Part shown: piece after piece, positions 1 to 35,091 of the stretch | Position numbering within the stretch: the first letter of the stretch is position 1 | Layout: each line of letters starts with the position of its first letter | NCBI RefSeq assembly: GCF_014642835.1 | Contig: NZ_BMJA01000002.1 | Span: 409,713-473,712 of the forward strand | Length of the DNA stretch: 64,000 nt | DNA from: Dyella nitratireducens | GTDB lineage: Bacteria > Pseudomonadota > Gammaproteobacteria > Xanthomonadales > Rhodanobacteraceae | Reading direction: 5' to 3' | The notes under the pieces: generated by a model | What the model was told of the DNA's origin: nothing | The model's database searches: none | What the model saw: only the letters and a program-made list of their open reading frames with translations | Translations under genes and position numbers: made by a program

Positions 1-42
1 GATCTCAAGTTCGAATTGATGGTGAAGGACCTGACGGCATGA
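1..42 (+). CDS. 3' end of an upstream gene (partial)
   Basis: The window opens inside a reading frame that gives 13 residues (DLKFELMVKDLTA) and stops at TGA 40-42. That TGA overlaps the next ATG (39-41) in an ATGA junction, so the two genes are very probably translationally coupled. Too little is left to identify the product. In Xanthomonadales a Rieske ferredoxin like the next gene often closes the suf Fe-S assembly operon, so a Suf component is a guess from context only. Confidence 0.5.
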   Translation, partial: DLKFELMVKDLTA

Positions 43-356
43 GCGAGGCATGGGTGGAAGTCGGTACGCGTTCCGAACTGCTGCCGGGTGAATTCAAAGT
101 CGTGTGGGACGGCGACACCGCCATCGCCGTCTTCAACATCGACGGCGATCTCTATGCGGTCGAGGATATCTGCACGCATGACGGCGGCGAACTTGCCGGC
201 GGCGACATTCATGGCCACGAAGTGGAATGCCCACGTCACGGTGCGCGTTTCGATCTGCGTACCGGCGCGCCTACGTGTCCGCCGGCGTATGAGCCCATTC
301 ACCGTTTTCCCGTCAAGGAAGAGAGCGGACTGATTTGGACGCGCGATGATCGTTGA
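39..356 (+). CDS. Rieske [2Fe-2S] ferredoxin (non-heme iron oxygenase ferredoxin subunit family)
   Basis: This 105-residue soluble protein is a stand-alone Rieske ferredoxin. The cluster motif is complete: C-T-H near residue 45 and C-P-R-H near residue 64, the CxH...CxxH ligand pattern, with the usual GGELAGG loop between. The length matches the family. Such proteins pass single electrons to oxygenases or serve in Fe-S assembly operons. It begins by ATGA overlap with the truncated upstream gene, so it belongs to an operon entering from the left. No oxygenase or reductase is adjacent. Physiological partner unknown; a role next to the SUF machinery is inferred from the usual gene order in relatives. 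Confidence 0.85.
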   Translation: MSEAWVEVGTRSELLPGEFKVVWDGDTAIAVFNIDGDLYAVEDICTHDGGELAGGDIHGHEVECPRHGARFDLRTGAPTCPPAYEPIHRFPVKEESGLIWTRDDR

Positions 357-859
357 GCGCCATGCTCAGTCATCTGTTTGCAACGAATGCACTTGCTTTG
401 TGCCTTGGTTCTCAAAACAAGCACGCGTGTGTGAGCTGTTGACAGATCTTTCATCCATGGATTGCTACACCGCAACATAAGTTTGTTGATGTTCGCAAGT
501 GGAGTGATGTTGCACACGTGGATACGCGCGTGTGTGGCGGAGTAGTCAAGACGCGAGTCGGTCCCCATCGCGTCTCACGTAAGCAGGTCAAGTGGATGAC
601 GTTTGCCGGCTGCGTGCCGGTGACCGTCCTTTTTGCAGCACCCATCGTGCAAGCGTTCCTTTCATGGCTGATATCAGCCGTGACGGCCTGCTTGCGCCAT
701 GAAAAGAGAGCGCAGTCCGATGCGCCGGGAAGCATGTGCTTAGGGGTAACAACGATGAATCACGAGTGCGAGTGCAACGCAGGCGGAGCAGGCACGTGCG
801 AGTGAGAGCGTAAGTCGCCAGCCGGACCTGAGTGTGCGCATTCGCAAGGAGATTGCGCC
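357..859. other. 503-bp non-coding region upstream of the NRPS gene
   Basis: No convincing gene is seen; the short frames here look like chance. A TTGACA hexamer at 439-444 is followed 17 bases later by a poor -10 (TTGCTA, 462-467). A perfect 14-bp palindrome, GGCTGATATCAGCC, sits at 666-679. The NRPS ribosome binding site AAGGAG is at 846-851, eight bases before the ATG at 860. The long leader suggests that the NRPS has its own promoter here, but none is firmly visible. Confidence 0.4.
666..679. promoter_or_regulatory. Perfect palindrome upstream of the NRPS (possible operator)
   Basis: GGCTGATATCAGCC is a perfect 14-bp inverted repeat about 180 bp before the NRPS start. It resembles the symmetric half-sites bound by dimeric repressors, but no regulator gene is adjacent and the palindrome could be chance. 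Confidence 0.2.
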
Positions 860-3800
860 ATGAGTCACGAGTCACCTGTGTCGCTGCCGTTGACGACTGC
901 CCAGCGTGGATTGTGGGTAGGCCAGAAGATCGGCGCGGCAGATGCCACCTTGAACATCGCCGAGATGCTGGAAATTTGTGGACCTGTGCAGCCAGATTTG
1001 TTCATCCGTGCGTTATGGCAGATCACTCGCGAAGCCGAAACGCTGCGCGTTAGCGTGGTCGAACATCAAGGCCGTCCACGGCAGATCGTGCGGCCGGTCT
1101 ATGCCGGTGAGTTTCCCTATCTGGATGTCAGCCAGGAAACCGATCCACGCGCAGCAGCCGAAGCGTGGATGATGGAAGAACTGTGCCGACCTGTGGATCT
1201 GGCCAACGATCCCCTGTGGGTGAGTGCGCTGTTCAAAGCGGCGGACGATCGCTACTACTGGTACCAGCGCGCGCATCATGTGATTTACGACGGTTACAGC
1301 GGCGGGGTGGTCGCGCGCAGACTGGCCGAGCTCTATAACGCCTATGTGGAAGGGCGCGAACCGGAAGCATGCGATTTCGGTTCCTTGCAGGAATTGATCG
1401 AGGCCGAAGCCGCCTATCGCGATTCGGATCGGCTGCGGCGCGATCGGGATTACTGGAAGGAAAAACTCAGCGACTTGCCTGAAGCCGGCTCGTTGTCGCG
1501 CCTTGGACCACACAGCAGCATGGGTGGCCTGCGGCGCAGTACCGGACATTTATCCATCGACACCGTGCAGCGGTTGCGCGAACTGGGCAAGCAGACCTCG
1601 ACCAGCTTGCCGCAAATCCTGATCGCTCTGGTGGCTGCGTACTATCACCGTGCCACCGGTGCACATGACCTGGTCATCGGCATGCCGGTCTCCGGGCGCA
1701 TCAATGCAACCTTGCGCAAGACGCCGGGCATGGTCGCCAATATCGTGGCCATTCGCTTGCGCTTTACACCCGAAACGACGGCGGTCGATTTGTTCACCCA
1801 AGTGGCGCAGGTGGTCAGGCAAACGTTGCGCCACCAGCAATATCGTTATGAGGATCTGCGCCGCGATCTCGGCATGATCGGGCAGGGCAAGCACATCGCC
1901 TGGCTGGGCGTGAATATCGAACCGTTCGACTATCAGCTGACGTTCGCCGGTGCCCGCGTGATTTCGCACAACGTGTCGAACGGTTCCGGCGAAGACCTTA
2001 CCGTGTTCGTCTACGACCGCGGCGACGGCAGCGAGTTACGCTTCGACTTCGATGCCAATCCAGTGCTGTACAGCATGGCCGATCTGGATGAGCATCGCCG
2101 CCGCCTGGGCACGCTGGTGGATGGCGTGCTGGCGGAACCGAACCGTCCCCTTGGTGAGATCGATATCCTCGGCATCGAGGAACGTCGGCGCTTGCTGTAC
2201 CAATGGAACGACACGGCTGCGCCTATCGCACTGGAAAGCTTGCCGGCACTCGTGGCACGGCATGCAACGTTAACGCCGGATGCGCCGGCCGTATTTTTTG
2301 AAGACCTTGTCGTGACCTATCGCGAACTGCACGAGCGCAGCGTGCGGCAGGCGCGGCAATGGATCGCCGATGGCGTGCTGCCCGGTGACATGGTGGCCGT
2401 GATGCTTCCGCGCAACGAGCAATGGCTGGTTGTGCTGCTGGCGATCATGCGCACGGGAGCCACCTTTCTGCCGCTCGATCCGGATGGGCCGCCGGAGCGC
2501 ATTGCGATGATGCTGGACGATGCCTCGCCCATCGCCCTGATCGCCACGCCCGCACTGTGCGAGCGCTTCGGTCTGGGCGGCATGCTGCTGCTGCACCCGG
2601 AGGATCTGGATATCGCGTTGGAGGGGAATACCGAAGAACCGGATTTGTCGCGGTCTGACGGTACGGCTTATGTGCTCTATACCTCCGGCTCGACCGGACG
2701 TCCCAAAGGTGTGGAGGTCACGCATCGCAATCTGTGCAATCTGCTGCAAGGCATGCGCACGCAGCTTGTGCTTGCCCCAGGCGATCGTTTTCTGGCCATC
2801 GCGACCATGGTGTTCGACATCGCCTTGCTGGAGCGCTTCCTGCCGTTGACGGCGGGTGCAAGCGTGGTGATCGCAGGTGGCGAAACGGTGCGTCATCCGC
2901 CCAGCTTGCTGCGTCTGCTGCAGCGTCAGCGTGCGACGCACATGTGGGCGACGCCTTCGCTCTGGCGTGTACTGCTGGCTGGTGCGGATGCCCATCTCGA
3001 CGATTTGCACGTGCTCATAGGCGGTGAAGCCTTGAGCGCGGAGCTGGCCAAGCAGCTGTTGCAGCGCGCTGGACGCGTGACGCAGCTTTATGGTCCGACG
3101 GAAACCACCGTTTTATCCACCGCCATTGAGTTGAAGGAGGTGAGTTCCAAAGCGCCGCCGATCGGCCGCCCCATTCTCAACACACGGTTGTATGTGCTGG
3201 ATCAGCATCAGCAGATCGTGCAGACGGGCGCTATCGGTGAGCTCTACATCGCCGGTGCGGGTGTTGCGAAAGGCTATCTCAACCATCATCAGCTGACGGA
3301 GGCGCGGTTCCTGGCAGATCCGTTCGCGGACGATGGCAGCCGCATGTATCGCACCGGCGATCTGGTGTACTGGGACAACCACGGTGTGCTGCATTTCGTT
3401 GGACGCGCCGATGGTCAAGTGAAGATCCGTGGCCATCGCGTCGAACTGGGGGAGATCGAATGCCAGTTGGTCCGGCACCCTGCGGTGGCCGAAGCGGCGG
3501 TTGCGGCGCATCGCGAGGAAGATGGCACCCTGGCGTTGGCGGGCTACGTGGTGATGCGCGAAGGCCAGTCAAGGATGGCCGATGAGCTGCGCAGCTACCT
3601 GGCCAAGTTTCTGCCCGACTACATGCTCCCCGCGCACTTCGTGGAACTGGATGGCTTGCCGCTGACACCCACCGGCAAGCTGGACCGCAAAGCGTTGCCG
3701 GCACCCGTGCGTACGCAGCGCGTCGCCTACGCCGAACCTGTCTCGGATGTGGAAAAGAAACTTGCCGCGCTATGGCAGCAGGTTTTGGGCGTGGAACGCG

Positions 3801-4864
3801 TCGGCCTGCACGACAATTTCTTCCAGTTGGGTGGTGATTCTTTGAGTGCTGCGGAAATGATTGCGCGCTTTCCGGAGTATTTCGGCATGGAGCTGCCGCT
3901 GGCCAGCCTGTTCGAAGCGTCGACCATCGCGGGCCTTGCTGCGTATTTGCAGCGTGCCGAAAGCAAGAGCGATCCATTGGGCATCGTGCTGCCATTGCGC
4001 ATATCGCATCGCGAACGCCCCTTGTTCTGCCTTCACCCGGCCGTGGGCCTCGGCTGGGGGTATACCGGTTTGTTGCGCTATCTCGATGACAAGGTGCCGG
4101 TGTACGGCCTGCAGTCGAGCGGATTGCGCGGCGGTGTGCCGCTACCCGGCAATATTGCGCACATGGCCGCCGACTATCTCGCGCAGATTCGGCGCATTCA
4201 ACCGGAAGGCCCTTACCGGTTGCTCGGCTGGTCACTGGGTGGACTGATCGCACACGAGATCACCGCGCAGCTGCAGGCAGATGAGCAGGCAGTGGAATTC
4301 CTTGCCTTGCTGGATGCCTATCCGTTCGTGGTGGATGGCACGCCATCACATGCCGATTCGAGGGAGGAAATCAGGGCAATCTTGCGATTCCTGGGCTTCC
4401 ATCGCCATGCAGAACATCCGCCTGCCGATCTGGCTGCATTGACCGATCTGCTGTGCAGGGAATACGGCGTATTCACGATGCCGCTGGTGCAGGAGATCTC
4501 TCGCCATAATCCGCAACTGGTCGAGCACGTTTCCGCCGTTACGCTCAATAACCTGCGTCTGGCACGCAAACACGTACCGCGGCAGATCGATGCCGATGTG
4601 ATGTTCTTCCGTGCCGCGCAGAAGGAGGCGGTCGACCTCAGTGCGCAGTTGTACGACCGGCCCGAAGCCTGGCGTCCCTATGTCGATGGTCGGCTGGAGA
4701 TACATGAGATTGCGTGCCACCACCAAAGCATGCTGGATGCGGCACCGGCTGCCGAGATCGGGCGTCTGGTTACGCAGCGGCTGCACGGGTTGCAGACGAT
4801 TCGTGGGCGATCCACTCAAGCCGTCCGGAATGCGCCTGCAGGGAGCATGGCCGCGTATGCCTGA
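860..4864 (+). CDS. Single-module nonribosomal peptide synthetase (C-A-T-TE)
   Basis: This 1334-residue protein is a complete one-module NRPS. Domains in order: condensation (1 to ~440, active HHVIYDG at ~138-144); adenylation (~450-950, A3 core YTSGSTGRPKG near 606, LYGPTETT, TGKLDRK); carrier protein with the phosphopantetheine serine in LGGDSLSA (Ser994); thioesterase with GWSLGG (Ser1125), an aspartate in LLDAYP and a histidine in CHHQSML. The layout matches EntF and the one-module serrawettin W1 synthetase SwrW. A hand alignment to GrsA gives the specificity code DILALGLVLK, closest to the glycine-type code but uncertain. A strong AAGGAG lies eight bases before the ATG. The gene overlaps the glycosyltransferase start by eight bases. 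No DHB genes, MbtH or second module are nearby, so an N-acyl amino acid or small cyclic (depsi)peptide is the likely product. Confidence 0.93.
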   Translation: MSHESPVSLPLTTAQRGLWVGQKIGAADATLNIAEMLEICGPVQPDLFIRALWQITREAETLRVSVVEHQGRPRQIVRPVYAGEFPYLDVSQETDPRAAAEAWMMEELCRPVDLANDPLWVSALFKAADDRYYWYQRAHHVIYDGYSGGVVARRLAELYNAYVEGREPEACDFGSLQELIEAEAAYRDSDRLRRDRDYWKEKLSDLPEAGSLSRLGPHSSMGGLRRSTGHLSIDTVQRLRELGKQTSTSLPQILIALVAAYYHRATGAHDLVIGMPVSGRINATLRKTPGMVANIVAIRLRFTPETTAVDLFTQVAQVVRQTLRHQQYRYEDLRRDLGMIGQGKHIAWLGVNIEPFDYQLTFAGARVISHNVSNGSGEDLTVFVYDRGDGSELRFDFDANPVLYSMADLDEHRRRLGTLVDGVLAEPNRPLGEIDILGIEERRRLLYQWNDTAAPIALESLPALVARHATLTPDAPAVFFEDLVVTYRELHERSVRQARQWIADGVLPGDMVAVMLPRNEQWLVVLLAIMRTGATFLPLDPDGPPERIAMMLDDASPIALIATPALCERFGLGGMLLLHPEDLDIALEGNTEEPDLSRSDGTAYVLYTSGSTGRPKGVEVTHRNLCNLLQGMRTQLVLAPGDRFLAIATMVFDIALLERFLPLTAGASVVIAGGETVRHPPSLLRLLQRQRATHMWATPSLWRVLLAGADAHLDDLHVLIGGEALSAELAKQLLQRAGRVTQLYGPTETTVLSTAIELKEVSSKAPPIGRPILNTRLYVLDQHQQIVQTGAIGELYIAGAGVAKGYLNHHQLTEARFLADPFADDGSRMYRTGDLVYWDNHGVLHFVGRADGQVKIRGHRVELGEIECQLVRHPAVAEAAVAAHREEDGTLALAGYVVMREGQSRMADELRSYLAKFLPDYMLPAHFVELDGLPLTPTGKLDRKALPAPVRTQRVAYAEPVSDVEKKLAALWQQVLGVERVGLHDNFFQLGGDSLSAAEMIARFPEYFGMELPLASLFEASTIAGLAAYLQRAESKSDPLGIVLPLRISHRERPLFCLHPAVGLGWGYTGLLRYLDDKVPVYGLQSSGLRGGVPLPGNIAHMAADYLAQIRRIQPEGPYRLLGWSLGGLIAHEITAQLQADEQAVEFLALLDAYPFVVDGTPSHADSREEIRAILRFLGFHRHAEHPPADLAALTDLLCREYGVFTMPLVQEISRHNPQLVEHVSAVTLNNLRLARKHVPRQIDADVMFFRAAQKEAVDLSAQLYDRPEAWRPYVDGRLEIHEIACHHQSMLDAAPAAEIGRLVTQRLHGLQTIRGRSTQAVRNAPAGSMAAYA

Positions 4865-6167
4865 GTCCAACGCACCGATTGCGATCTTCACCATCGGCAC
4901 GCAAGGCGATATTCGCCCTTGCGTCGCCCTGGGTGTTGGCCTGCAGCGTGCGGGTTACCCGGTGCGGATCGTCACCAGCGACAACTTCGAAGGCATGGTG
5001 CGTGCGGCGGGGTTGGCCTTTTTTCCGCTGACGGCGAATTTCCAGACGCTACTCGATTCCAATCGCGAGATCGCCGACAAGGGATTGGACATGTCGGCGA
5101 TGGCGCGCATCTCCCGCCACTTTTACAGCGAGTGGGCCACGCATTGGGCACGCGAAGGCATGGCGGCAGCGCAAGGCGCAGGCTTGCTGATAGGCGTCGC
5201 CAACAGCACCTTGCTGGCCAAGGCCGTTGCCGAGGCACAGGGCATTCCCTTCGTGGGCGCGCAGTTGCAACCGCTGACGCCGTCACGCTACATGTCGCCG
5301 CTGGTGCTGGTCGGCGGACGCAAGCTGCCGCCTGCCTTGAACATGGCGGCGTACAACGTATTGCGGCTGCTGGTGTGGCACGTGATGAAACCGGCCATCA
5401 ACGACATCGTGCGTCCGCAACTCGGTTTGCCGAAATATCCGTGGTACGGGCCGTATTTCAAGAATCGGCATCATCGGGTGCTTTACGGCTTCAGCCATCA
5501 CGTCGTGCCAAGACCGGTCGACTGGCCGGATACCGCGCAGATCACCGGTTACTGGTTTCTCCGCCAGCCGGATTGGCAGCCGCCGGATGCGCTGCGTGCC
5601 TTTCTTGATGCAGGACCCAAGCCGATCTACGTGGGTTTTGGCAGCATGGTGAGTACGCGTGCCGAGTCGTTCACCGCGATCGTGCTGGATGCCGTCCGGC
5701 GCAGTGGGCAGCGCGCCGTGCTTGCGACGGGCTGGGGTGGTTTGGCCGGTGAAGATGGTACGCAGGATGGACAGATTTTCTTTACGCGCGGCGCGCCGCA
5801 CGACTGGCTGTTTCCGCGCATGGCAGCTGCCGTTCACCACGGTGGCGCCGGCACCACGGCGGCGGCGGTTCGCGCAGGGATTCCTTCGGTGATCGTGCCG
5901 TTCTTTGGCGATCAGCCGTTCTGGGCGCGTTGTTTGCAGCGGGAAGGCGCGGCACCGCCGATCGTGGAGCGGCGTTCCATGCGTGCGGATACCTTGCTTG
6001 CAGCGATCGATGCGGCGCTGAAGCCATCCATGCGCAAGGCAGCTGCGTCGCTAGGGACGAAAGTGCGTGCGGAGGATGGGGTCACGGAAGCAATAGTGTG
6101 TCTGCGCAACTGGGGCGTATTGAAGCCAGTGCACGATGAGGAACTGGTGTTTGCGTTGGCAAGGTGA
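4857..6167 (+). CDS. GT1-family (GT-B fold) glycosyltransferase
   Basis: The product has 436 residues. The true start is the ATG at 4857, inside the last codons of the NRPS; the frame stays open further upstream only because it shadows the NRPS. The N-terminal FTIGTQGDIRPCVALG motif and the C-terminal donor-binding VHHGGAGTTAAAVRAG and PFFGDQPFWA motifs mark the UGT/sterol glucosyltransferase/vancomycin Gtf/RhlB superfamily, which moves a sugar from a nucleotide donor to a small lipophilic acceptor. Length fits (400-450). No signal peptide, so it is cytoplasmic. The overlap with the NRPS implies coupled translation and suggests that it glycosylates the NRPS product. Sugar donor and acceptor cannot be read from sequence. 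Confidence 0.88.
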   Translation: MPESNAPIAIFTIGTQGDIRPCVALGVGLQRAGYPVRIVTSDNFEGMVRAAGLAFFPLTANFQTLLDSNREIADKGLDMSAMARISRHFYSEWATHWAREGMAAAQGAGLLIGVANSTLLAKAVAEAQGIPFVGAQLQPLTPSRYMSPLVLVGGRKLPPALNMAAYNVLRLLVWHVMKPAINDIVRPQLGLPKYPWYGPYFKNRHHRVLYGFSHHVVPRPVDWPDTAQITGYWFLRQPDWQPPDALRAFLDAGPKPIYVGFGSMVSTRAESFTAIVLDAVRRSGQRAVLATGWGGLAGEDGTQDGQIFFTRGAPHDWLFPRMAAAVHHGGAGTTAAAVRAGIPSVIVPFFGDQPFWARCLQREGAAPPIVERRSMRADTLLAAIDAALKPSMRKAAASLGTKVRAEDGVTEAIVCLRNWGVLKPVHDEELVFALAR

Positions 6168-6287
6168 TGTGCAGGCTGTCGAATCCGCATAGCGATCATG
6201 CATCACTTTATCCATGATGTCTCCGGCCCACACCGGAATCACGACGAGACAAGATGGACGCTTATGGCAAGTGTTGCGACAAGCGCA

Positions 6288-7193
6288 TCACTTCGGCGCA
6301 AACCTCACCAGTACGCGCTGGCCGATGCGCAGCGGCATCGACGGCGCCTGATCGAACGTCAGCACGCATTCCACCGAGCGCGTATTGGCACGCACCTGCG
6401 GATCGTCTTCCAGCGTGCTGGCGCCGAACACCTTGCCGATGCGCAGCACGTGCGCCTTCAACGGCGCCATGCCGCTGCCGCTGTCGTCATCCACTTCCGC
6501 GGCCATGCCGTCGTGCACGACGCCGACAAACGACTCGTTGAGCTCGGCGCGCACGATGCGCGGTGAATCGGGCAGCATCACGAAGATGGGACCGCCCGCC
6601 GGCGATACCGTGCTACCGGGCTGCACCATGCGTTGCACGATCTCGCCGTCGGCCGGTGCATGCAGGCTGCGCAGTTCCAACTGGTAATGGGCACCGGCCA
6701 CTTTCTGTGCGGCGAGCGCTGCGTTGGCGCGCGCGTTGGTCAATTCGGTCTGGGCTTGCTGCGCGGCTTCACGAGCATCGTCTGCACTCTGCACGTCGCC
6801 CGCGCCTGCCCTGGCAGCTTGCTGCAGTCGCGAGGCCCGCTGTTCGGCCGACTTGGCGCGCTCCTCCAATGCACCGATCTGCGCAGTGGCTTGCTGCTGT
6901 TCGGCGAGTGCCGTATCCAGGGCGAGCTTGGCAGGTTCCAGGTCGAGCTGCGCCAGCAGCTGTCCTTTGTGCACGTGATCGCCTTCGTGCACGTCGACCA
7001 GCGCGATGACGCCTTCGCTGGGCATGGTGAGCTTGAGCAGACCGCCTTCGATGTCGATACGTCCACGCGCTACCGCTGCATAAGTCTGTGTGGCAGCAGC
7101 GCTGGGTGTCGCCGGAGCATCGTCCTGCGAGCAGCCGGCGAGCAGCGCCGCGGCAAGCAGGGTGAGCGGAAGACGGAGCGGGCGCAGGGTCAT
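6288..7193 (-). CDS. HlyD/MacA-like periplasmic adaptor lipoprotein of an ABC exporter
   Basis: This is a 301-residue membrane-fusion protein. The start is set at the ATG at 7193, which leads directly into a lipoprotein signal peptide ending LLAGC; the longer frame adds residues that would bury that signal. A biotinyl-lipoyl-like region (GVIALVDVHEGDHVHKGQLLAQ) is followed by an alanine/glutamine-rich coiled-coil hairpin (~80-170), then the second lipoyl half (LHAPADGEIVQRMVQPG) and a beta-barrel. It would link the inner-membrane ABC transporter to the outer-membrane factor. It is the last gene of a four-gene minus-strand operon, ten bases after the ATPase. The operon converges on the NRPS/glycosyltransferase pair. 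Confidence 0.87.
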   Translation of the reverse strand: MTLRPLRLPLTLLAAALLAGCSQDDAPATPSAAATQTYAAVARGRIDIEGGLLKLTMPSEGVIALVDVHEGDHVHKGQLLAQLDLEPAKLALDTALAEQQQATAQIGALEERAKSAEQRASRLQQAARAGAGDVQSADDAREAAQQAQTELTNARANAALAAQKVAGAHYQLELRSLHAPADGEIVQRMVQPGSTVSPAGGPIFVMLPDSPRIVRAELNESFVGVVHDGMAAEVDDDSGSGMAPLKAHVLRIGKVFGASTLEDDPQVRANTRSVECVLTFDQAPSMPLRIGQRVLVRFAPK

Positions 7194-7203
7194 GCTTGGG
7201 TTC

Positions 7204-7959
7204 TCAGCGGGGCTCAGTGGCGGTGGCAAGTGGCGAGGGTGGAACATGGTCGCTCAGAATGCGGCCGTCTTCCATCGCCAGTACTCGGTCGGCGTGGTGG
7301 ACCAGGCGCGGGTCGTGGCTGACGCATAGCACCGTGGTGCCGTGCGTGCGGGCAATGCGGTGCAGGATATCGATCACGATCTGCCCGTTGGCGGCGTCCA
7401 GTGCGCTGGTGGGTTCGTCGGCGAAGAGCAGTTCCGGCTCTTTGGCGAGTGCGCGGGCGATAGCGACACGCTGCTTTTCACCGCCGGACAATTCGGATGG
7501 CAATAACCGCATGCGCGGACCGAGGCCGACTTCCTCCAGCGAATCCACCGCACGCTTGCGTACCACGTCCTTGGCCAGCCCCATGTAGCTCAGCGGCAGT
7601 TCTACTTGCTCCAGCGCGGTCAGTGCCGGAAACAGATTGAAACCCTGGAACACGAAACCGGTGTGCTGCAGGCGGAAGCTTTCCAGTGCGCGCGCGCTCA
7701 GGCCGCTCAGATCATGGCCGAGTGCGTGCACCTGGCCCGAGTCGGCGCTTTGAAGGCCACTCAAGATAGCCAGCAGCGTGCTCTTGCCGCAGCCGGAAGG
7801 ACCGGAAATCAGGGTGAGTGCACCGGCTTGCACATCCAGCGTGAGATCGTGCAGCACGGTGCTTTCGATGCGGCCGGAAACGAACGTCTTGCGCACGCTG
7901 CGGGCGTGCAGCGTGACCGTGTTGGTGGCAGTGGTTGGAGCCGATAGGGACATGCTCAT
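7204..7959 (-). CDS. ABC transporter ATP-binding protein (MacB/LolD-type)
   Basis: This 251-residue ATPase has Walker A GPSGCGKST, signature LSGGEKQRVAIARAL, Walker B LLFADEPTSALD and a switch histidine in CVSHD. It resembles the stand-alone ATPases of the MacB/LolD/DevA group that serve FtsX-like permeases. The start at 7959 makes an ATGA overlap with the permease stop; the frame is open upstream but runs through the permease gene. A second in-frame ATG lies two codons later (7953). The neighbours (permease before, adaptor after, outer-membrane factor first) define a tripartite exporter. Confidence 0.92.
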   Translation of the reverse strand: MSMSLSAPTTATNTVTLHARSVRKTFVSGRIESTVLHDLTLDVQAGALTLISGPSGCGKSTLLAILSGLQSADSGQVHALGHDLSGLSARALESFRLQHTGFVFQGFNLFPALTALEQVELPLSYMGLAKDVVRKRAVDSLEEVGLGPRMRLLPSELSGGEKQRVAIARALAKEPELLFADEPTSALDAANGQIVIDILHRIARTHGTTVLCVSHDPRLVHHADRVLAMEDGRILSDHVPPSPLATATEPR

Positions 7960-9089
7960 CTCAGCAGGCTCGCCGGATCGGCACGGCGCAAGGTGCGCAC
8001 TGCGGCCAGGCCGGAAACGATGGCGAGCGCCATGCTCAACGCCAGGCAGGTGATGGCCGTGATCGGATGCAATTCCATCGGCACACTGCGGTTTTTCGCG
8101 ATGACCAGCAAAATCAATCCGATCACGATGCTGCACACCAATCCCAGTGCTCCCACCCAGAAGGCTTGCTCCATCACCACCTTGCGCAGCGAGCCACGGC
8201 CGACGCCCAGTGCATTCAAGGTGGCGTATTCGCGGATCGAGCCGATGACCGCGGCGATCAGCGTCTGGCTGGTGATCACCGAGCCGACCAGGAACACGAT
8301 GCCGGCGAGGAATAGCACACCCGCGCCCGCGCCCGTGTCGAACATCCAATACAGGCTCGATTCGCGCGCGAACGCATTGGCCGTCCAAACGGTATAAGGC
8401 CCGAACGCATTGGAGCCGTTCAAGCGTTTCGCCACGATCCGTGGTTTCACGCCGGGGCGCACCTTGGCGATGAAGTAGGTCATCATGCCGGCATCGTCGG
8501 GCGAGACGTCCAGTACGCGAGCCGTTTCCAGCGATGCGACGATGTTGACGCCACCCAGTGCGCGCAGCCCCTTGCTTACGCCGACTACTTTTACGCGCTG
8601 ACCATTGATGGCGGCAGTGCCGCCGATGCTTACACCTAGGCTGTCCAAATCCGCTTCATCCACGATCACCGCGCCGGGCTCGCTCAGGCGTGCGCGTAGC
8701 GCGGGAGGAAGCACGCGCGAGAACATCATGCCGTCGGGGCGCGCGTCGATGCCGGATACGAACACCGACACGCCGCCGGTATCGCTGGGGCCGCGCCAGT
8801 CGGCATCCACCCAGCGAAACGGTTCCACTTTCACCACATCCGGGTCCATGCGCAGGCGCATCGCCACGTCTTCGCTGATCGGCCGGCCGAGATTGACGCT
8901 CTGCGTGCCCGGATAACCGGCCCACAGGTCAGCGGAGGAACGGGTGATGTACACGCTCGCGCTGCCGAAGATGCCCATCACCAGCGCGGCCTGCAGCAAC
9001 TGCAGCAAGCTGGCGAAACCCACGGCAAGAATCGCCGGCAGAAAACGGCGCCATTCATAGATCAGGGTTTTGCGTGCCAGCGCCACCAT
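7956..9089 (-). CDS. FtsX/MacB-like ABC transporter permease
   Basis: The 377-residue protein has one N-terminal membrane segment (~15-45), a large periplasmic region (~45-250) and three C-terminal segments (~255-285, 305-335, 345-370). This is the four-helix FtsX/MacB/DevC architecture, in which the permease drives export by mechanotransmission through a periplasmic adaptor rather than by a classical channel. The start overlaps the outer-membrane-factor stop by one base (TAATG) and the stop overlaps the ATPase start (ATGA), so all four genes are tightly coupled. Substrate unknown; the glycosylated NRPS product next door is the obvious candidate. Confidence 0.87.
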   Translation of the reverse strand: MVALARKTLIYEWRRFLPAILAVGFASLLQLLQAALVMGIFGSASVYITRSSADLWAGYPGTQSVNLGRPISEDVAMRLRMDPDVVKVEPFRWVDADWRGPSDTGGVSVFVSGIDARPDGMMFSRVLPPALRARLSEPGAVIVDEADLDSLGVSIGGTAAINGQRVKVVGVSKGLRALGGVNIVASLETARVLDVSPDDAGMMTYFIAKVRPGVKPRIVAKRLNGSNAFGPYTVWTANAFARESSLYWMFDTGAGAGVLFLAGIVFLVGSVITSQTLIAAVIGSIREYATLNALGVGRGSLRKVVMEQAFWVGALGLVCSIVIGLILLVIAKNRSVPMELHPITAITCLALSMALAIVSGLAAVRTLRRADPASLLR

Positions 9090-10582
9090 TACTTGGGCCC
9101 TTGCTTGTTGCCGAGCGCCTTGTAGTCGGCGGTGACATTGACCGGCGGCAACGGTGCGCCGCCCAATGCCTTGTACAGCGACACGTAAGCGAGGTCGCGT
9201 TCGGCACGCGCGGATACCAGTGCGAGCTGTGCGTTCTGCTGTGCGATCACGGCATCTTGCAGATCGAGCGTGCTGGAAAGGCCAAGGCTGCGGCGCTTGT
9301 TCAGCGCGGTCACGTTGTCGTCGAGCGCCTGTGCAGCCTGCTGGGCCGAGTTCTCGCGCTGATGCGCCTGCTGCAGATCGCCCATCGCGGTTTCGGTTTC
9401 GGCGACGCCTTGCAGTACCGCCTGACGATAGGCGTACACCGCGGCGAGCAGTTCATGTTTCTGCGAGTGCGCCTTGGCGACGCGCATGCCCCAGTCGAAC
9501 AGCGGCACGTCCATCACCGGGCCGGCTGAGAAAATGCCGTCACCGGAACGAATGAAGTTGTGATGGCTGAGCAGGTTCACCGACCAGTCCAGCGAGGCGC
9601 CCAGTCCGATGTGCGGATAGATGTCCGCCCGGGCAATACCCGCTTGCCCAGCCGCACGCAGCACCTCGGCCTCCGCCGCAGCGATCTCGGGACGCGTGCG
9701 CAGCAGCTCGGCCGGCGCGTGCGTCATCTGCCAATCGCCCAGTTGTGGTTGGGTGCCACCGTCCAGCCACGCTGGATCCGGCTCGCTTTGGCCGAGCAGC
9801 ACGGCCAATTGCTGCGCATTGGCATTGATGGCCCGTTGCGGATCGATCAGCGCCATGTCAGAACGCGCCAGTTCTGCTTTGGCCGAGGCGACCTCGGTGG
9901 GAGAGGCGAGCTTCAAACGCTCGCGCACTTCAAGCAGATGCAGTTTCTCGCGGTTCGCGTCGCGCGAAGCGGTCAGCAAGCTTGCCTGTTGCTGCGCCGA
10001 GCGCAGCGAAATCCAACAGCGCGCCACTTCGGCTACGAGCGTGACGTAAGCGCTCTGCAAGTTTGCCCGGGCTGCATCGAGATTGCCGGCGGCGAGCCGG
10101 TGCGTACTTTTCAATGCGCCGAAAAGCGGCAGTTCCCACAACGCATCGAAGCCCACGATGAAGTAGGAGGCGCTGGCGTCGGGCTCGATCACCTGGTTGG
10201 TGTCCAGACGCAGGTTGGGCAGGAACGGGTCGTTGGTGTGTCGATACAGCGTGCGCACCGCTTGCAGTCGCTCGGTGGCAGCCTTGATGTCCAGGTTATT
10301 GCCCAGCGCGCGCTTCTCCAGCGCGTCCAGCTCAGGGTCGTTGAAGGCCTGCCACCAATACCTGAGGTCCGGTTGAGCGGGGCTTGGGGCATTGACCACT
10401 GGCGCGTTGCGCCATGTTTGCGGTACCGGCGGCTTCAGGGCCGGCAAGGGGGCCGCGGCGCAGCCCGCCAGCGCAGTCAGCACCAGCGCGGCGAACAGGC
10501 TTAGAGCAGAGGAGGCATGACGCGGTGCGGGATCGAGCACGGGCTGGGAACCGTCGATGAAAGGCGTGCAAAAGCTAAGCAT
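9089..10582 (-). CDS. TolC-family outer-membrane efflux lipoprotein (NodT/OprM type)
   Basis: A 497-residue outer-membrane factor. The N-terminus carries a lipobox (VLTALAGC, Cys ~41), followed by two outer-membrane-efflux repeats with long alanine-rich helices, including YWWQAFNDPELDALEKRAL and the second-repeat LDLQDAVIAQQNAQLALVSARA. This trimeric channel would give the ABC exporter an exit through the outer membrane. It is the first gene of the minus-strand operon and its start faces the HAD phosphatase, so the space between 10583 and 10754 should hold two divergent promoters. A TonB-independent drug-efflux role is equally possible. Confidence 0.9.
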   Translation of the reverse strand: MLSFCTPFIDGSQPVLDPAPRHASSALSLFAALVLTALAGCAAAPLPALKPPVPQTWRNAPVVNAPSPAQPDLRYWWQAFNDPELDALEKRALGNNLDIKAATERLQAVRTLYRHTNDPFLPNLRLDTNQVIEPDASASYFIVGFDALWELPLFGALKSTHRLAAGNLDAARANLQSAYVTLVAEVARCWISLRSAQQQASLLTASRDANREKLHLLEVRERLKLASPTEVASAKAELARSDMALIDPQRAINANAQQLAVLLGQSEPDPAWLDGGTQPQLGDWQMTHAPAELLRTRPEIAAAEAEVLRAAGQAGIARADIYPHIGLGASLDWSVNLLSHHNFIRSGDGIFSAGPVMDVPLFDWGMRVAKAHSQKHELLAAVYAYRQAVLQGVAETETAMGDLQQAHQRENSAQQAAQALDDNVTALNKRRSLGLSSTLDLQDAVIAQQNAQLALVSARAERDLAYVSLYKALGGAPLPPVNVTADYKALGNKQGPK

Positions 10583-13269: not shown

Positions 13270-13295
13270 GGCGGCGCTCAGCGCCGCCTTTTTTT
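13270..13295 (+). terminator. Rho-independent terminator after the aminotransferase
   Basis: GGCGGCGCTCAGCGCCGCC forms a GC-rich hairpin followed by seven T residues. The T tract overlaps the stop codon of the converging sensor kinase (13294-13296), so the kinase gene ends inside its neighbour's terminator. Confidence 0.9.
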
Positions 13296-14679
13296 AGGTT
13301 TGGTCCGCTGCGGGGAAAATGATTTCCACGCGCAAGCCGCGTCCGTCGCTGCCGCTGCGATAACGCACGCGCGCCTCATGCCACTCCGCAATCCGTTGCA
13401 CGATCGCCAGCCCTAGTCCGCTGCCTTGCTCCTCGCTGCCGGGTACGCGGAAGAAGCGTTCGCCCAGGCGCTCGATCCATGAGGGCGGCACACCGGGGCC
13501 GTTGTCTTCCACCGCAAGGCAGATGTGTCTGTTTTCGCGATCAAGCGATACGGTCATGACGCTGCCGCGGCCGGCATAGCGCAAACTGTTGTCGATCAGG
13601 TTGTCGAGCAGCTCCTGCAGCCGATGGCGGTCGCCGTCGATATGCAGCGGACCGGCGGGGCCTTCGTAGCCCAGGTCGATATGGGCGGCCAGCGCTTCGT
13701 GTACGCGCTGGCCGACCAGTTCGGGAATCAACGTGGCCAGATCCAGCCGCTCGGTATCACCCGCCTCGTGCTCCGCGGTTTGCGCACGCGTCAGTGCGAG
13801 CAGTTGGCTTGAGGTGCGGTTGGCGCGCAGGATCAGGCGCTGGATGTGATTGAGTGCATCTTTGATGGTGGTTGGATCGGAGCTGGCTTGTGCGCGTTCC
13901 GCATGCACGCTCAAACCTGCCAACGGCGTGCGTAATTGATGCGCGGCGTCGGCGATAAAGCGTTCGTGCAAGGCGAGCATGCCGCGCAGGCGCGCGAACA
14001 GGCCATCGATGGTGCGTGTAAGCGGGAGGATTTCCACCGGCACGTCGGCGTCACCGATAGGTGCCAGGCCGTGCTCACGGTTGGCCAGCTGATTGGTGAG
14101 CGGTTCGAGCTGGCGCAAGCTCGTACTCACACCCAACCAAACCAGCAGAAATGCCGCAACAATCAGCAGCGCCTGCGCGGGAATGCTCAGAAGCAAGATT
14201 TGCCGCGCTTCCTGGTGCCGGTCGTGCAGGGTTTCAGCGATGGTCACCTCCAGCTGGTCATCCGGTTCGCGCGGATTGACCATCTGGATGCTGGCCGCGC
14301 GCAGCGCATGTCTTTCGATCTGGATGTCGTAGAGCTGCGGTGCATGCCCATCGGCGAACAAGCCACGGGGAGGCTTAAGCACGGGGTTGCCGGCGATCAG
14401 TCCGTGATGTTCGCTAAACACGCTGAAGTAATTGCGTCCTTCCGGCTCGTATTCCAGCAGGAACTGGGCTTGCGGCGTGACTTGGCCATCCGGGCTTTTG
14501 TTGGTCATCAGCTGCACCAGGGTCAGCGTGTCGTTGACCAGATTCACATCGTGCACGTGGTTGGCGTAGATCAGCGCACCCAGGTAGGTGATCAAGCTGT
14601 TCAACAGCAGCAGTGCGGTGAGCGGGACCAGCAGCGTGGTCAGCAGGCGCCTGCGCAGGCTTTGGCGTCTAGCCCGCAT
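13294..14679 (-). CDS. Two-component sensor histidine kinase (TctE/QseC-like)
   Basis: A 461-residue membrane kinase. Two transmembrane helices (~13-38 and ~165-190) flank a periplasmic sensor of the 2CSK_N type; a HAMP-like linker follows, then the phosphoacceptor motif ADAAHQLRTPLAG, the N box LLDNLIDNSLRYAG, the G1 box VEDNGPGVP and the G2 box GSGLGLAIVQRI. It would autophosphorylate the H-box histidine and pass phosphate to the response regulator encoded 95 bp upstream on the same strand. The signal is unknown; TctE- and QseC-like sensors answer carboxylates, metals or envelope cues. The stop codon lies within the terminator of the converging aminotransferase gene. Confidence 0.92.
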   Translation of the reverse strand: MRARRQSLRRRLLTTLLVPLTALLLLNSLITYLGALIYANHVHDVNLVNDTLTLVQLMTNKSPDGQVTPQAQFLLEYEPEGRNYFSVFSEHHGLIAGNPVLKPPRGLFADGHAPQLYDIQIERHALRAASIQMVNPREPDDQLEVTIAETLHDRHQEARQILLLSIPAQALLIVAAFLLVWLGVSTSLRQLEPLTNQLANREHGLAPIGDADVPVEILPLTRTIDGLFARLRGMLALHERFIADAAHQLRTPLAGLSVHAERAQASSDPTTIKDALNHIQRLILRANRTSSQLLALTRAQTAEHEAGDTERLDLATLIPELVGQRVHEALAAHIDLGYEGPAGPLHIDGDRHRLQELLDNLIDNSLRYAGRGSVMTVSLDRENRHICLAVEDNGPGVPPSWIERLGERFFRVPGSEEQGSGLGLAIVQRIAEWHEARVRYRSGSDGRGLRVEIIFPAADQT

Positions 14680-14774: not shown

Positions 14775-15449
14775 TCATGCTTCCTTGACCTCTTCCAGCA
14801 GATAGCCCAGTCCACGGATGGTGCGTACCTGCGTGCCGGAATCGGTGAGCTTGCGGCGCAGGCGATAGATGGCGATATCCAGACCGTTGTCAGTGAGTTC
14901 CTGATCCCAGCTGCACAAGGCTTCGATCAGTTGCGCGCGGCTGGTGACGCGATCCGGGCGAGCAGCGAGCGCTTCGAGCAGGCCGAATTCGCGTGCGGTG
15001 AGTTCCAGCGGCTTGTCGTCCACCCAGGCGCGATGGCCGGGCAGATCCAGGCGCAGGCGGCCGATGGTGATTTCCGGCGCACCCTGGGTGGTGTAGCGCC
15101 GCAACAAGGCGCGTACACGTGCTTCGAATTCGGCCAGGGCGAAGGGCTTCACCAGGTAATCGTCAGCGCCCAGATCCAGTACGCGTACGCGCTCACGCAG
15201 GCCTTCGCGCGCGGTGATCACCAGCACCGGCAAGCTGCTGCCGCGTTTGCGTACACGCTGCAATACTTCGCTGCCATCCAGCCCCGGCAGGCCAAGATCG
15301 AGCACGAGCAGGTCATAAGGTGTGTCTTTCAGTGCTGCGTCTGCACGCACCCCGTCGACCACGTGATCGACCGCATGGCCGCCCTGACGCAGCGCCGCGC
15401 TGACGCCGGCGGCAATGGAGGGGTCGTCTTCGGCAATCAGGATGCGCAT
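14775..15449 (-). CDS. OmpR/PhoB-family response regulator
   Basis: A 224-residue regulator. The receiver domain (1-~115) has the acidic pair in IAEDDP, the phosphoacceptor aspartate in LLVLDLGLPG (~Asp51), the threonine in VLVITAR and the lysine in DYLVKPFALAE. The C-terminal winged helix carries the LTAREFGLLEAL and IYRLRRKLTDSG elements of OmpR-type DNA binding. It lies directly upstream of the kinase gene on the same strand and forms a two-component pair with it. Closest named relatives are TctD/QseB. Targets are unknown; the neighbouring secreted peptidase gene across the divergent gap is one candidate. Confidence 0.93.
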   Translation of the reverse strand: MRILIAEDDPSIAAGVSAALRQGGHAVDHVVDGVRADAALKDTPYDLLVLDLGLPGLDGSEVLQRVRKRGSSLPVLVITAREGLRERVRVLDLGADDYLVKPFALAEFEARVRALLRRYTTQGAPEITIGRLRLDLPGHRAWVDDKPLELTAREFGLLEALAARPDRVTSRAQLIEALCSWDQELTDNGLDIAIYRLRRKLTDSGTQVRTIRGLGYLLEEVKEA

Positions 15450-30268: not shown

Positions 30269-33200
30269 TCAGCGCAATTGCAGCCACGTCAACCGCTGCC
30301 CGGTTTGTCCGCCGGGGGGGTTGATCTGATTGACGGTACCAACACCCGAAACGGTCTGATTGACCAGATAAGGTTGGCCTTTCGCCGTCACTACTGACGG
30401 ACTGCCTACCGCACTGAGTGCGATGCCGCTAATGGAGCCGCTGATCACAACGCCCGTGGTATCGGAGAAGAAGGAGTTGGTGAAGCCGCCGCCCGTTGCC
30501 GGATTCAACGCCATCGTCCAGCCCGCCGTTGTCACCACGGTGCAGCTCAGCGGGGAGTTGTTCGCCGGAATCGTCGTATTCACGATAAAGGCACCTTCGG
30601 ATTCGATCGGGCTGTAGATGACCTGTTCGGTCTGATTACTGCCGCCCACCCAGGACACGCCGTTATAAGCAGGCAGGTTCAGATACCAACCGAACTGGCT
30701 ACCGGCTACGTTAACGAGGTTACCGCTCGAATTGGTCGTTGCGCACGTTGAGCCTTCCATGCATACGGTGTTCTCGCTCACCGTGCGATAGCCCAGGATG
30801 GTGGAAGTGGAGCTGCTTGATGTCGTGGTGCTGGTTATCGTCTGTTGTTCCAGGTTGCTTTGCGTAATAGGCGAAGATGCCGTGGGTGTACCTGTCGAGC
30901 CGACACTCAGGCCGGCATAGCCTGCGCCTGCTGTACCTGCCACCCCCATGCCCCAGTCCCAAATGCCGTATAGCGTTTGCGGTCCGCCCGAATAGGTGGC
31001 GCTGGACGTTACGGATTGCGGCTGGATGGAGCCAGTGCCGAATTCCACCAATACGTAAGGTGTATTGGAGCTTGAACTCGGCTCCGTCGTTGCGACCACG
31101 ACCAACTGGGTGGTAATCGGCTGCGGACTGATCACCGTGTAAGTGGTGGTGTTGCCACTCGTCGTACTGGTGGTGCCGTATGCATAGGTGGATTGTTGCG
31201 ACGGTGCCACCGGCGACAGAACGGTAATCGTCGGTGTCGATGTGGTGGTGGTCGTGGTACCGCCGCTGGTTGTCGTGGTGGTGGTGTACACCGTCTTGAT
31301 CGGCGGCGTGGTGAACAATGGTGTGGCTGAGCTGTTCCCGTAGCTGGAAACCCCCCAGTTGGCAGGGTTGCTGCTGGTCAGGTCAAAACGCCAGATATTG
31401 CCGTACGCGTCGCCTGCATAAACGTAGTCGGCAATGTGGTCGCCATCGAGGTCGACGGCGGAGACATAACCAATGCCGTTGGGATTGCTCGCACTGCCCA
31501 CACCCGTATCCAGGAAATAGACGGTCGACGAGGTTTGGCTGCTAGCGCTGATGGCACCGTTGCCGTTGATCAACATGACATAGATGCCGGCATGGCCTGT
31601 GACGCTGTTGAAGCCGTTACCGAAGATGATCGCCCACCCGCCATTGTGCAGGCGGCGGATCTCCGGCGTGCCGACGGTCTGGCCTAGCGACTTGCCGCAC
31701 ACGCTGCTGGATGTATCGGTCTTGCATACGAGTGTAGTGGCGACCGAACTGCCTGTAACGGCCGTACTCCACTCGCCAATCACGCTGCCGGTGCCGAAAG
31801 CGTTGGTACCGAGATCCGTGATATCAAGCGCGAAGATGGCATTGCCGCCGACACCCAGTCCACTTACCAGCCAGGTGTGCCAGGCGTTGCCGTAGAACAG
31901 GTCGCCGGTACCCGGTGTGGCATCCATGTAGAAGTTGTGCGCGTAGTTGACGGAGGAGTAATCCAGCGTCGAGGTGGCAGCGTTGTGGATCGTCGACAGT
32001 ACTGCGCCCGGGATATAGGCAAGCACTTCCTTGCCGTCGTTCGCGGTGCCGTTGGCGCAAAGGTTATAGATGCCGTTGGTGTTTTGGCTTGCACATGCAT
32101 AGGTACCGTCGGTGTTGTAGTAGCCGGACTCAAAACCATGCATGAAACCGTCGTTCGAACCCACATAGACCACGTTCAAGCGCTTGGCTTCGCCGTTGGT
32201 GCCGCCGCCGGCGAAGGTTCCATAAGTAATGGCGCCAGTTGCGTTCTCAGCCATCGTTTGTGTGGGGTAAAGCAGGTCCGACCAGGTGTTCGGATAAGGC
32301 GACAATGGTGGTCCCACCCAAACGGGGCTGGAGTCGATGATGTCGCCCAGCACGCTGGTACGCGCACGGAAATTGTCGTAAGACCCCGCCGCATTGACCA
32401 CCGACTTGCCTGATTGGGTCACTTCGTTGGTGCGATCGCCACCCAGGTAGGCGACGCGGTCCTGCGCCACCTGACTGGCGTTTGTGACGCCACTGTCATT
32501 GGAGCCCAGCCAGCTTTGTTCGTTCGTGGTCAGGCGACCCCAGCTAAAGGGCGCAGCGCCCGCGCTGGAGGCATTGTCATTCGGGCCGCCAGTCCAGGTC
32601 ACCATGTTGCGACTGCCAGTCCCTTGTGCCGTCATGCCGGTTTGACCGGTTGCCGTACAGCTACCACCGGTGAGGACACATGAAGCGTCCCAGTTCGCCG
32701 CGCTTGAAATCGATACCGTGCCAGTGGTGGCGTTGTAGACGAGATTCTGCGAATCCAGCTCGCCCCACCAGTTGTTGGGATGGTAGTAAGCCAGGTACAC
32801 CTGCGTACCGGTTTGCACTTGGCCGGTCTGCTGGGTGTTGATACCGGCCGAGCTGGCCGATACGTTCGCCGGCGTGGCCTGGAAGCAGGTGATCTCGTGA
32901 ACGTTTTGGCTGCCGCCGGTGGAGCCACCGAAGCCAAACAGGAAATTCGCCGGCATGGCGCCATTGGACGAAGAAATATCTTGTGAGGTCAGCACGGGCA
33001 CATAGTTGCCGCCGTTGTAGCTGTACCACAGGCTTAGCAGACCGGTCTGAGTGATTTGCAGCTTGTACGCGATAGGTGTGGCGGTAGCACGCGTCAATGC
33101 GTTTTCGTTGGCGATCGGTGTTGTACTGGGCAGATTGATGTAAGCGTTAGGAATCGCCGGATAGTCGGGAATGGTCGCTACGTTGGTGTTAGTTGTTGTT

Positions 33201-34495: not shown

Positions 34496-34512
34496 GTGAT
34501 TCGACCCTGTAT

Positions 34513-35091
34513 TTATGGTCCGCAAGACAAGCACTTGGTATTGGTCGACAACTCATACGTGCTCTGCACCACCGCAATGGCACTGGGCGTGCTGCCATAG
34601 CTCAGGGCGGTGACTTGATAGATCTGGCCGGCACCACCCGGTGCCGCACCGAGGTACTGGTAGTAGTACTGCGGGTTGGCGTAATACGAGTTGTTGCTGC
34701 TCGTCGTCGATACGGTGATAGCCGGTTGCATGCTGGTGTACGCCTGGTAAGCGGCCAGTGTGGTGACGCCAGTTGCCGACGTGGGGTTTGTAATGCTGTA
34801 TGCGTTCGTGCAGATCGTCAGCGTGGTGAACACCGTGCCTGATGCACAACTGGTCGATGAAGGCAGGCTCGCTGCGTTATGTACCAATACGTATTCGGCG
34901 TACTGCAGCGTGCTTTGCGCAAGTTGGAATGAACGCCCCTTTTCCTTGGTGTTCGAAGCAACGTTTTCCTGCAGGGTGAAATTGTGATACATGCTGACAG
35001 CCAGCAACGTCATCACGATCAGCATCAACAGGCTGGCGATCAGCACGAAGCCGCCTTCTTTTTGTGCTCTGGTTTTGAGGGTGCTTGGCAT
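34513..35091 (-). CDS. pilX: Minor pilin PilX
   Basis: A 192-residue prepilin-like protein. It begins with a basic leader and the glycine followed by FVLIASLLMLIVMTLLAVSMYHNFTLQENVASN, the PilX signature in which Glu5 is replaced. The C-terminal half is Ser/Thr/Tyr rich with a CLSC pair. The ATG at 35091 gives a short leader; a GTG at 35124 overlaps the pilW stop and is a possible alternative. PilX joins FimU/PilV/PilW in the minor-pilin complex that primes pilus assembly together with PilY1, whose gene follows 17 bases later. Confidence 0.83.
   Translation of the reverse strand: MPSTLKTRAQKEGGFVLIASLLMLIVMTLLAVSMYHNFTLQENVASNTKEKGRSFQLAQSTLQYAEYVLVHNAASLPSSTSCASGTVFTTLTICTNAYSITNPTSATGVTTLAAYQAYTSMQPAITVSTTSSNNSYYANPQYYYQYLGAAPGGAGQIYQVTALSYGSTPSAIAVVQSTYELSTNTKCLSCGP

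Follow-up and report, generated by a model that had tools for sequence, protein, structure and literature searches.

A conserved pair of nonribosomal peptide synthetase and glycosyltransferase genes in Dyella nitratireducens, with an amino-acid glycolipid as candidate product

Results and Discussion

The NRPS-GT Pair

This study concerns a 64,000-nucleotide stretch of DNA (the window) of Dyella nitratireducens (Rhodanobacteraceae), part of a 1.32-Mb contig in a genome of 5.68 Mb. Near its left end, a gene for a one-module nonribosomal peptide synthetase (NRPS) with condensation, adenylation, thiolation and thioesterase domains (C-A-T-TE) is followed by a glycosyltransferase (GT) gene. The two genes are as follows.

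860..4864, plus strand: one-module NRPS, C-A-T-TE, 1334 aa (Pfam; adenylation pocket DILWLGLVLK by alignment)
4857..6167, plus strand: GT1-type glycosyltransferase, 436 aa (Glyco_transf_28, EryCIII-like_C and UDPGT matches, all above cut-off)

The NRPS stop and the GT start overlap by 8 bp (4857-4864), and the pair converges on a four-gene tripartite ABC exporter on the minus strand (10582-6288). An initial annotation, made from the DNA letters, had described a one-module C-A-T-TE NRPS overlapping a GT1 gene and an opposite-strand operon of outer membrane factor, FtsX-like permease, ATPase and HlyD-like lipoprotein. Open reading frames (ORFs) and Pfam searches confirm all six genes at the same positions.

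The NRPS has the Pfam domains Condensation (residues 9-446), AMP-binding (466-807), the C-terminal part of AMP-binding (865-940), PP-binding (967-1030) and Thioesterase (1053-1294), all above cut-off, and its motifs HHVIYDG, LGGDSLS and GWSLGG are intact. Its best long NCBIfam matches, MxcG (810.3 bits, cut-off 2300) and EntF (665, cut-off 2400), are both below cut-off. The nearest solved relatives of the GT by sequence are a sterol 3-beta-glucosyltransferase and then GtfB. Measured against three congeners, the ratio of nonsynonymous to synonymous substitution rates (dN/dS) lies at 0.10-0.15 in the NRPS and 0.09-0.17 in the GT. The values are rough, since two of the three comparisons have a dS close to or above 1; they speak for maintained genes. 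The ACPS (phosphopantetheinyl transferase, PPTase) family has two matches above cut-off in the genome. A scan of 357-6320 found the plus strand free of sigma-70-like sites and gave eight terminator-like hits, where shuffled sequence gave a mean of 4.7 (sd 2.6). The same genome also holds very large NRPS open frames of 4956, 8611 and 11957 residues on contig C3, at about 31000-156000.

Conservation of the Pair

The GT was searched against 233 genomes of the family at E <= 1e-20. Matches were found in 58 of them, and 19 (the window's own included) have a match of at least 55% identity. Below this group, full-span matches reach at most 38% identity and partial ones at most 41%, the exception being a second fragment in genome G083 at 48%. 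At that locus (L056; G083:C55, 9732-10833) the GT is split over two frames with stops between. An NRPS lies directly upstream on the same strand at all 18 non-self orthologue loci, aligning over 1309 residues or more at 52-83% identity; the GT homologues aligned (n = 17) show 54-90% identity. Because this arrangement holds at 18 of 18 loci, we conclude on sequence grounds that the NRPS and the GT are one functional unit, true and conserved.

A scan of named genomes listed 80 loci of 584 confirmed and is not a census. Among the matches listed, a full-length NRPS lies directly upstream of the GT on the same strand at 10 of the 80 loci, including ones in Xanthomonas maliensis, Lysobacter, Nitrospirillum, Zhongshania, Rhizobium and Spongiibacter, and some NRPS match at E <= 1e-8 is present at 19. 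Also among the matches listed, Acetobacter persici (L136) has its NRPS in pieces on the opposite strand, the loci without the pair are mostly distant GTs of cyanobacteria and Chloroflexota, and the nearest named relative is Dyella choica, although the window's own or very near records may be left out. One contig of a Bryobacterales (Acidobacteriota) metagenome-assembled genome (MAG; L072) carries the pair with a GT2 and four acyltransferase matches; its NRPS falls within the NRPS clade of the window's family, a sign of transfer or mis-binning.

The Adenylation Pocket

The ten pocket letters were taken from an alignment of 26 NRPSs, a set that omits L136 and counts L069-L071 once, under L039, L048 and L051 from the same genomes. 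In 21 of the 26, the pocket begins with D-I, has Q at the fourth place and ends with W-K, as in the glycine signature; the complete form DILQLGLIWK occurs in four rows (L054, L055, L076, L077). The window and four congeners (G071, G070, G076, G068) have DILWLGLVLK. These five carriers form one clade (support 96/99) next to the glycine-type G069 and G079. Because the window's pocket differs from the glycine type at two positions, its amino acid may not be glycine.

Genes Added in Relatives

Outside the genus, the pair is often accompanied by further genes. A GT2 stands next to it in 10 of 12 loci (L046-L054 and L056; not L045 or L055), and seven of those loci hold two condensation/PapA-like acyltransferases (L047, L049-L053, L056). 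A penicillin-amidase-family acylase is present in five (L046, L047, L048, L054, L056). On the rhamnosyltransferase model TIGR01556 (cut-off 200.55), the GT2 reaches 154.3 bits. One type of acyltransferase matches PapA5 weakly (33.7, cut-off 396), the other matches condensation-type models only, and the acylase matches PvdQ weakly (34.1, cut-off 950). The presence of the GT2 and the acyltransferases would be fitting for a glycolipid. Viewed more widely, the surroundings of the pair at L042, L043, L046-L054 and L056 include an RhlC-like GT2, condensation/PapA-like acyltransferases and a penicillin-amidase-type acylase, and many of those loci outside the genus have a two-component system upstream.

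Within the genus, G069 and G079 hold a GT2 and a condensation-like acyltransferase between the GT and the exporter, which lies about 3-4 kb from the pair; the five DILWLGLVLK genomes lack both genes. The match of gene loss and pocket is not strict beyond the genus, as G232 and G114 lack the extra genes yet have a glycine-type pocket. In the window's genome, a GT2 search run without a positive control gave no match, and the acyltransferase search gave only six matches of at most 33% identity, all inside the large NRPS frames. A penicillin-amidase match within the window's GT (5762-5974), and similar ones at other loci, were rejected as artefacts because the query ORF from L046 began inside its GT and its amidase domain starts at residue 203. 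The amidase search covered the first 20 kb of the window.

The Neighbouring Exporter

The exporter genes, and the gene at the other edge of the insertion site, are listed here.

6288..7247, minus strand: HlyD-like periplasmic adaptor, a neighbour not judged part of the pair (ORF, Pfam, NCBIfam)
about 7204..7959, minus strand: exporter ABC ATPase, neighbour (Pfam; NCBIfam ranks DevA first and LolD second, each below its cut-off)
7956..9089, minus strand: FtsX/MacB-like permease, neighbour (Pfam; DevC as sole NCBIfam match, below cut-off)
9089..10582, minus strand: outer membrane factor of NodT/TolC type, neighbour (TIGR01845, above cut-off)
39..356, plus strand: Rieske-type protein, left edge of the insertion site (named from sequence)

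The permease scores 92 bits on DevC (cut-off 290.35) and the ATPase 222.4 on DevA (cut-off 295.8). Among NCBIfam models, the adaptor scores best on the general RND_mfp (85.1, cut-off 94.9), and DevB ranks third (62.1, cut-off 129). An internal ATG near 7193 precedes a lipobox-like LLAGC, and the adaptor is probably a lipoprotein made from that start. A search for solved relatives of the permease returned none at E <= 0.01.

The permease is present in 178 of the 233 family genomes (E <= 1e-40), including 16 of 16 in the genus; 17 of the 178 have the pair and 161 do not. Besides the pair loci, 54 exporter loci were compared (12, those of G080 and G082, and 40 others). The order adaptor, ATPase, permease, outer membrane factor is kept in all 54, none has a GT match, and one (G073) has NRPS sequence. 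In 8 of the 16 genus genomes (G072, G074, G075, G077, G078, G080, G081, G082) the site is empty: judged by match ends, Rieske gene and adaptor are 24-213 bp apart, and the pair is absent. The pair occupies this gap in seven genus genomes, the window's included. Outside the genus, the ~20 kb examined at each of the 12 pair loci contain no exporter match (E <= 1e-10), except that L045 has an outer membrane factor of 27% identity next to an RND pump. Eight of these 12 genomes (G084, G088, G174, G232, G085, G086, G087, G089) have the exporter elsewhere, in stretches that gave no NRPS or GT match. Because most permease-bearing genomes lack the pair, all 12 outside-genus pairs stand apart from the exporter and eight congeners have the empty site, these comparisons indicate that the exporter is an older neighbour and a general family trait rather than a pump reserved for the pair, although it could carry the pair's product.

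In G073, what is probably the same Rieske-exporter junction holds another NRPS, a larger one. Beside the Rieske gene (L199, G073:C40, 3-5507), an NRPS frame of about 1835 residues with 35% identity to the window's NRPS runs off the contig; beside the exporter (L057, 9950-10966) lies a carrier-thioesterase end of 36% identity. The two ends are on different contigs, so their join would be a reconstruction. Two kinds of NRPS at one exporter in one genus may reflect a tolerant insertion site or a benefit of nearness to the exporter.

Beyond the outer membrane factor, MtnX is the first gene with a match in 41 of the 54 exporter loci and a sensor kinase (54-59% identity to 13294-14679) in nine; in a tenth locus, a 29% kinase takes this place. 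Where MtnX and an aminotransferase intervene, the kinase often comes after them. This order hints at a regulatory tie between exporter and kinase. In the window, 13294-14679 encodes a QseC/PmrB-like sensor kinase and 14775-15449 a PmrA/QseB-like regulator, both below cut-offs. Farther along, 30272-34534 encodes a 1421-aa protein with a PilY1 domain, likely within a type IV pilus region.

Proposed Function and Alternatives

From the domains, the pairing and its conservation, the pocket letters and the empty site, we consider it somewhat probable that the pair makes a glycosylated acyl-glycine-type lipid or a near relative, with the exporter an older neighbour that is not its own. In the proposed order of steps, the adenylation domain would load glycine or a similarly small amino acid onto the carrier domain, and the condensation domain would link this residue to an acyl chain, probably consisting of one 3-hydroxy fatty acid or a few joined together. 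Once the thioesterase had freed the acyl-amino acid, the GT would add a sugar, either glucose or a deoxyhexose, to an acyl-chain hydroxyl.

Several observations weigh against this proposal. Beside the pair, no gene was identified that would make 3-hydroxyacyl chains or join them, and the window's pocket departs from the glycine type, with W for Q and L for W. The nearest solved relatives of the GT have sterols and glycopeptides as acceptors. Agrobacterium vitis, Marinomonas and Zavarzinia have GTs of 44-49% identity (L075, L078, L079, L134) that lack an upstream NRPS, and by these comparisons the GT alone is no predictor of the pair outside the family. The likeness to the pairs of Alcanivorax and Xanthomonas albilineans is drawn from the descriptions in papers.

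The initial annotation had proposed that the six genes may make and export a glycosylated aminolipid or glyco-depsipeptide, a surfactant or antimicrobial. The biosynthetic half of that proposal stands, with the NRPS and GT as a unit and a glycosylated acyl-amino-acid lipid as our best guess; the export half is not supported. A DevBCA-like pump dedicated to the NRPS-GT product would explain why the pump is on the GT side of the pair in all seven pair-bearing genus genomes and why DevA and DevC are the best matches of its ATPase and permease, their namesake being an exporter of a glycolipid. The NRPS of G073 also looks as if the pump attracted NRPS genes. However, relatives that keep the exporter without the NRPS and GT, which the annotation had named as speaking against its own proposal, make up 161 of the 178 permease-bearing genomes; in eight congeners the pump stands at this position and the pair is missing, and the outside-genus pairs are apart from it. 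Moreover, only 17 of the 19 pair-bearing genomes have the permease: the match list has no entry for G114 and records G091 as lacking a match. A dedicated pump is thus improbable. Still less credible is the suggested analogy to SwrW, with a serrawettin-like lipodepsipeptide made from serine and later glycosylated. The C-A-T-TE order is the same, and the best long NCBIfam matches are MxcG and EntF, though below cut-off. However, the analogy is weak because DILWLGLVLK resembles glycine codes and is unlike the serine code DVWHFSLVDK, and a serine lipodepsipeptide was rejected on these letters.

A change of the subclade's pocket to another amino acid, such as alanine or another small residue, would give a distinct glyco-acyl-amino acid. 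The shared W and L in five genomes of one well-supported clade, all five without the GT2 and the acyltransferase that their sisters G069 and G079 retain, argue for such a change, and the available sections of one paper describe a minor alanine form of the Alcanivorax lipid (PMC10684412). On the other side, the two changes could swap bulk across the pocket and keep glycine, and G232 and G114 are without the extra genes yet of glycine type. We regard this change as rather unlikely, although more plausible than either a dedicated pump or a serine product. A broader reading is tentative, with the odds slightly against it: the NRPS-GT pair may be the minimal core shared by a widespread group of gene clusters for amino-acid glycolipids, a core that grew in the window's bacterial family and was stripped back in the window's clade, with the pocket rebuilt for a distinct lipid. 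Under the same tentative reading, growth would have added an RhlC-like second GT and one or two acyltransferases (four in the Bryobacterales MAG), in some cases with the acylase, to give acylated di-glycosyl acyl-glycines.

Relation to Known Systems

Pairs of this kind have been in print since 2013. In the sections of PMC3849588 consulted, one-module C-A-PCP-TE genes of X. albilineans (XALc_0364/0365 and XALc_1145/1144) overlap a glycosyltransferase gene by 4 or 8 bp, a starter-type C domain is stated for both copies, and a Gly signature is given for XALc_0364. The same sections report similar genes in other Xanthomonas and, in Alcanivorax borkumensis, ABO_1784/1783 with the PPTase gene ABO_1782, and call the function of the pair unknown. 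Separately, available parts of PMC10710537 (2023) describe a glycine-glucolipid of four 3-hydroxy fatty acids on glucose with glycine amide-linked, name ABO_1783 and ABO_2215 as potential contributors and call the pathway not elucidated; GT candidates including ABO_1783 are repeated in the portion of PMC6223728 consulted. The corresponding portions of PMC6669457 and PMC12299268 contain no tie of an NRPS to the lipid. Our literature search returned no description of the pair in Dyella, no proof of its product and no paper stating a join of the NRPS-GT pair to the glycine-glucolipid. That join is one we infer here. If the broader reading is true, it would also assign the unsolved assembly of the glycine-glucolipid to an NRPS plus a GT. 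A two-gene version with a natural pocket variant, together with gene-rich relatives, makes both questions testable.

Several better-known systems differ from the locus. MacB carries its ATPase and permease fused in one protein, whereas the window's ATPase and permease are separate genes. DevBCA-TolC exports the heterocyst glycolipid; like it, the window's exporter has separate adaptor, permease and ATPase genes that in the latter two cases match DevC and DevA best, but all three proteins are below the family cut-offs and the exporter mostly occurs without the pair. The NRPS scores below the cut-offs of the EntF and MxcG equivalogs (2400 and 2300), and its pocket letters, set against the serine code, do not give the serine adenylation domain of SwrW, the serrawettin W1 synthetase. 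Rhamnolipid synthesis proceeds through RhlA, RhlB and RhlC (PMC6669457, in part). It shares with the present system a GT1-type enzyme, and the GT2 of relatives is near the rhamnosyltransferase family TIGR01556. In contrast, an NRPS would join an amino acid here, and the window's genome is without a GT2 match.

The closest parallels are the Alcanivorax lipid and the short NRPS-GT pairs. The expected building blocks, namely a sugar, 3-hydroxy fatty acids and glycine, are those of the glycine-glucolipid as described in the consulted parts of PMC10710537 and PMC10684412. Alcanivorax has a PPTase gene by its pair, whereas none was recognised beside the window's pair. The window's NRPS also has the pocket variant DILWLGLVLK, where a Gly signature is given for one X. 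albilineans copy. As in the pairs of PMC3849588, a single C-A-PCP-TE module is overlapped at its 3' end by the GT, here by 8 bp, and the genome has PPTase-family matches, here the two of ACPS type. The initial annotation named no described system of exactly this content; for the pair, that statement fails, as the architecture appears in section 7 of that paper, and the pair in the window is a further case of the described kind.

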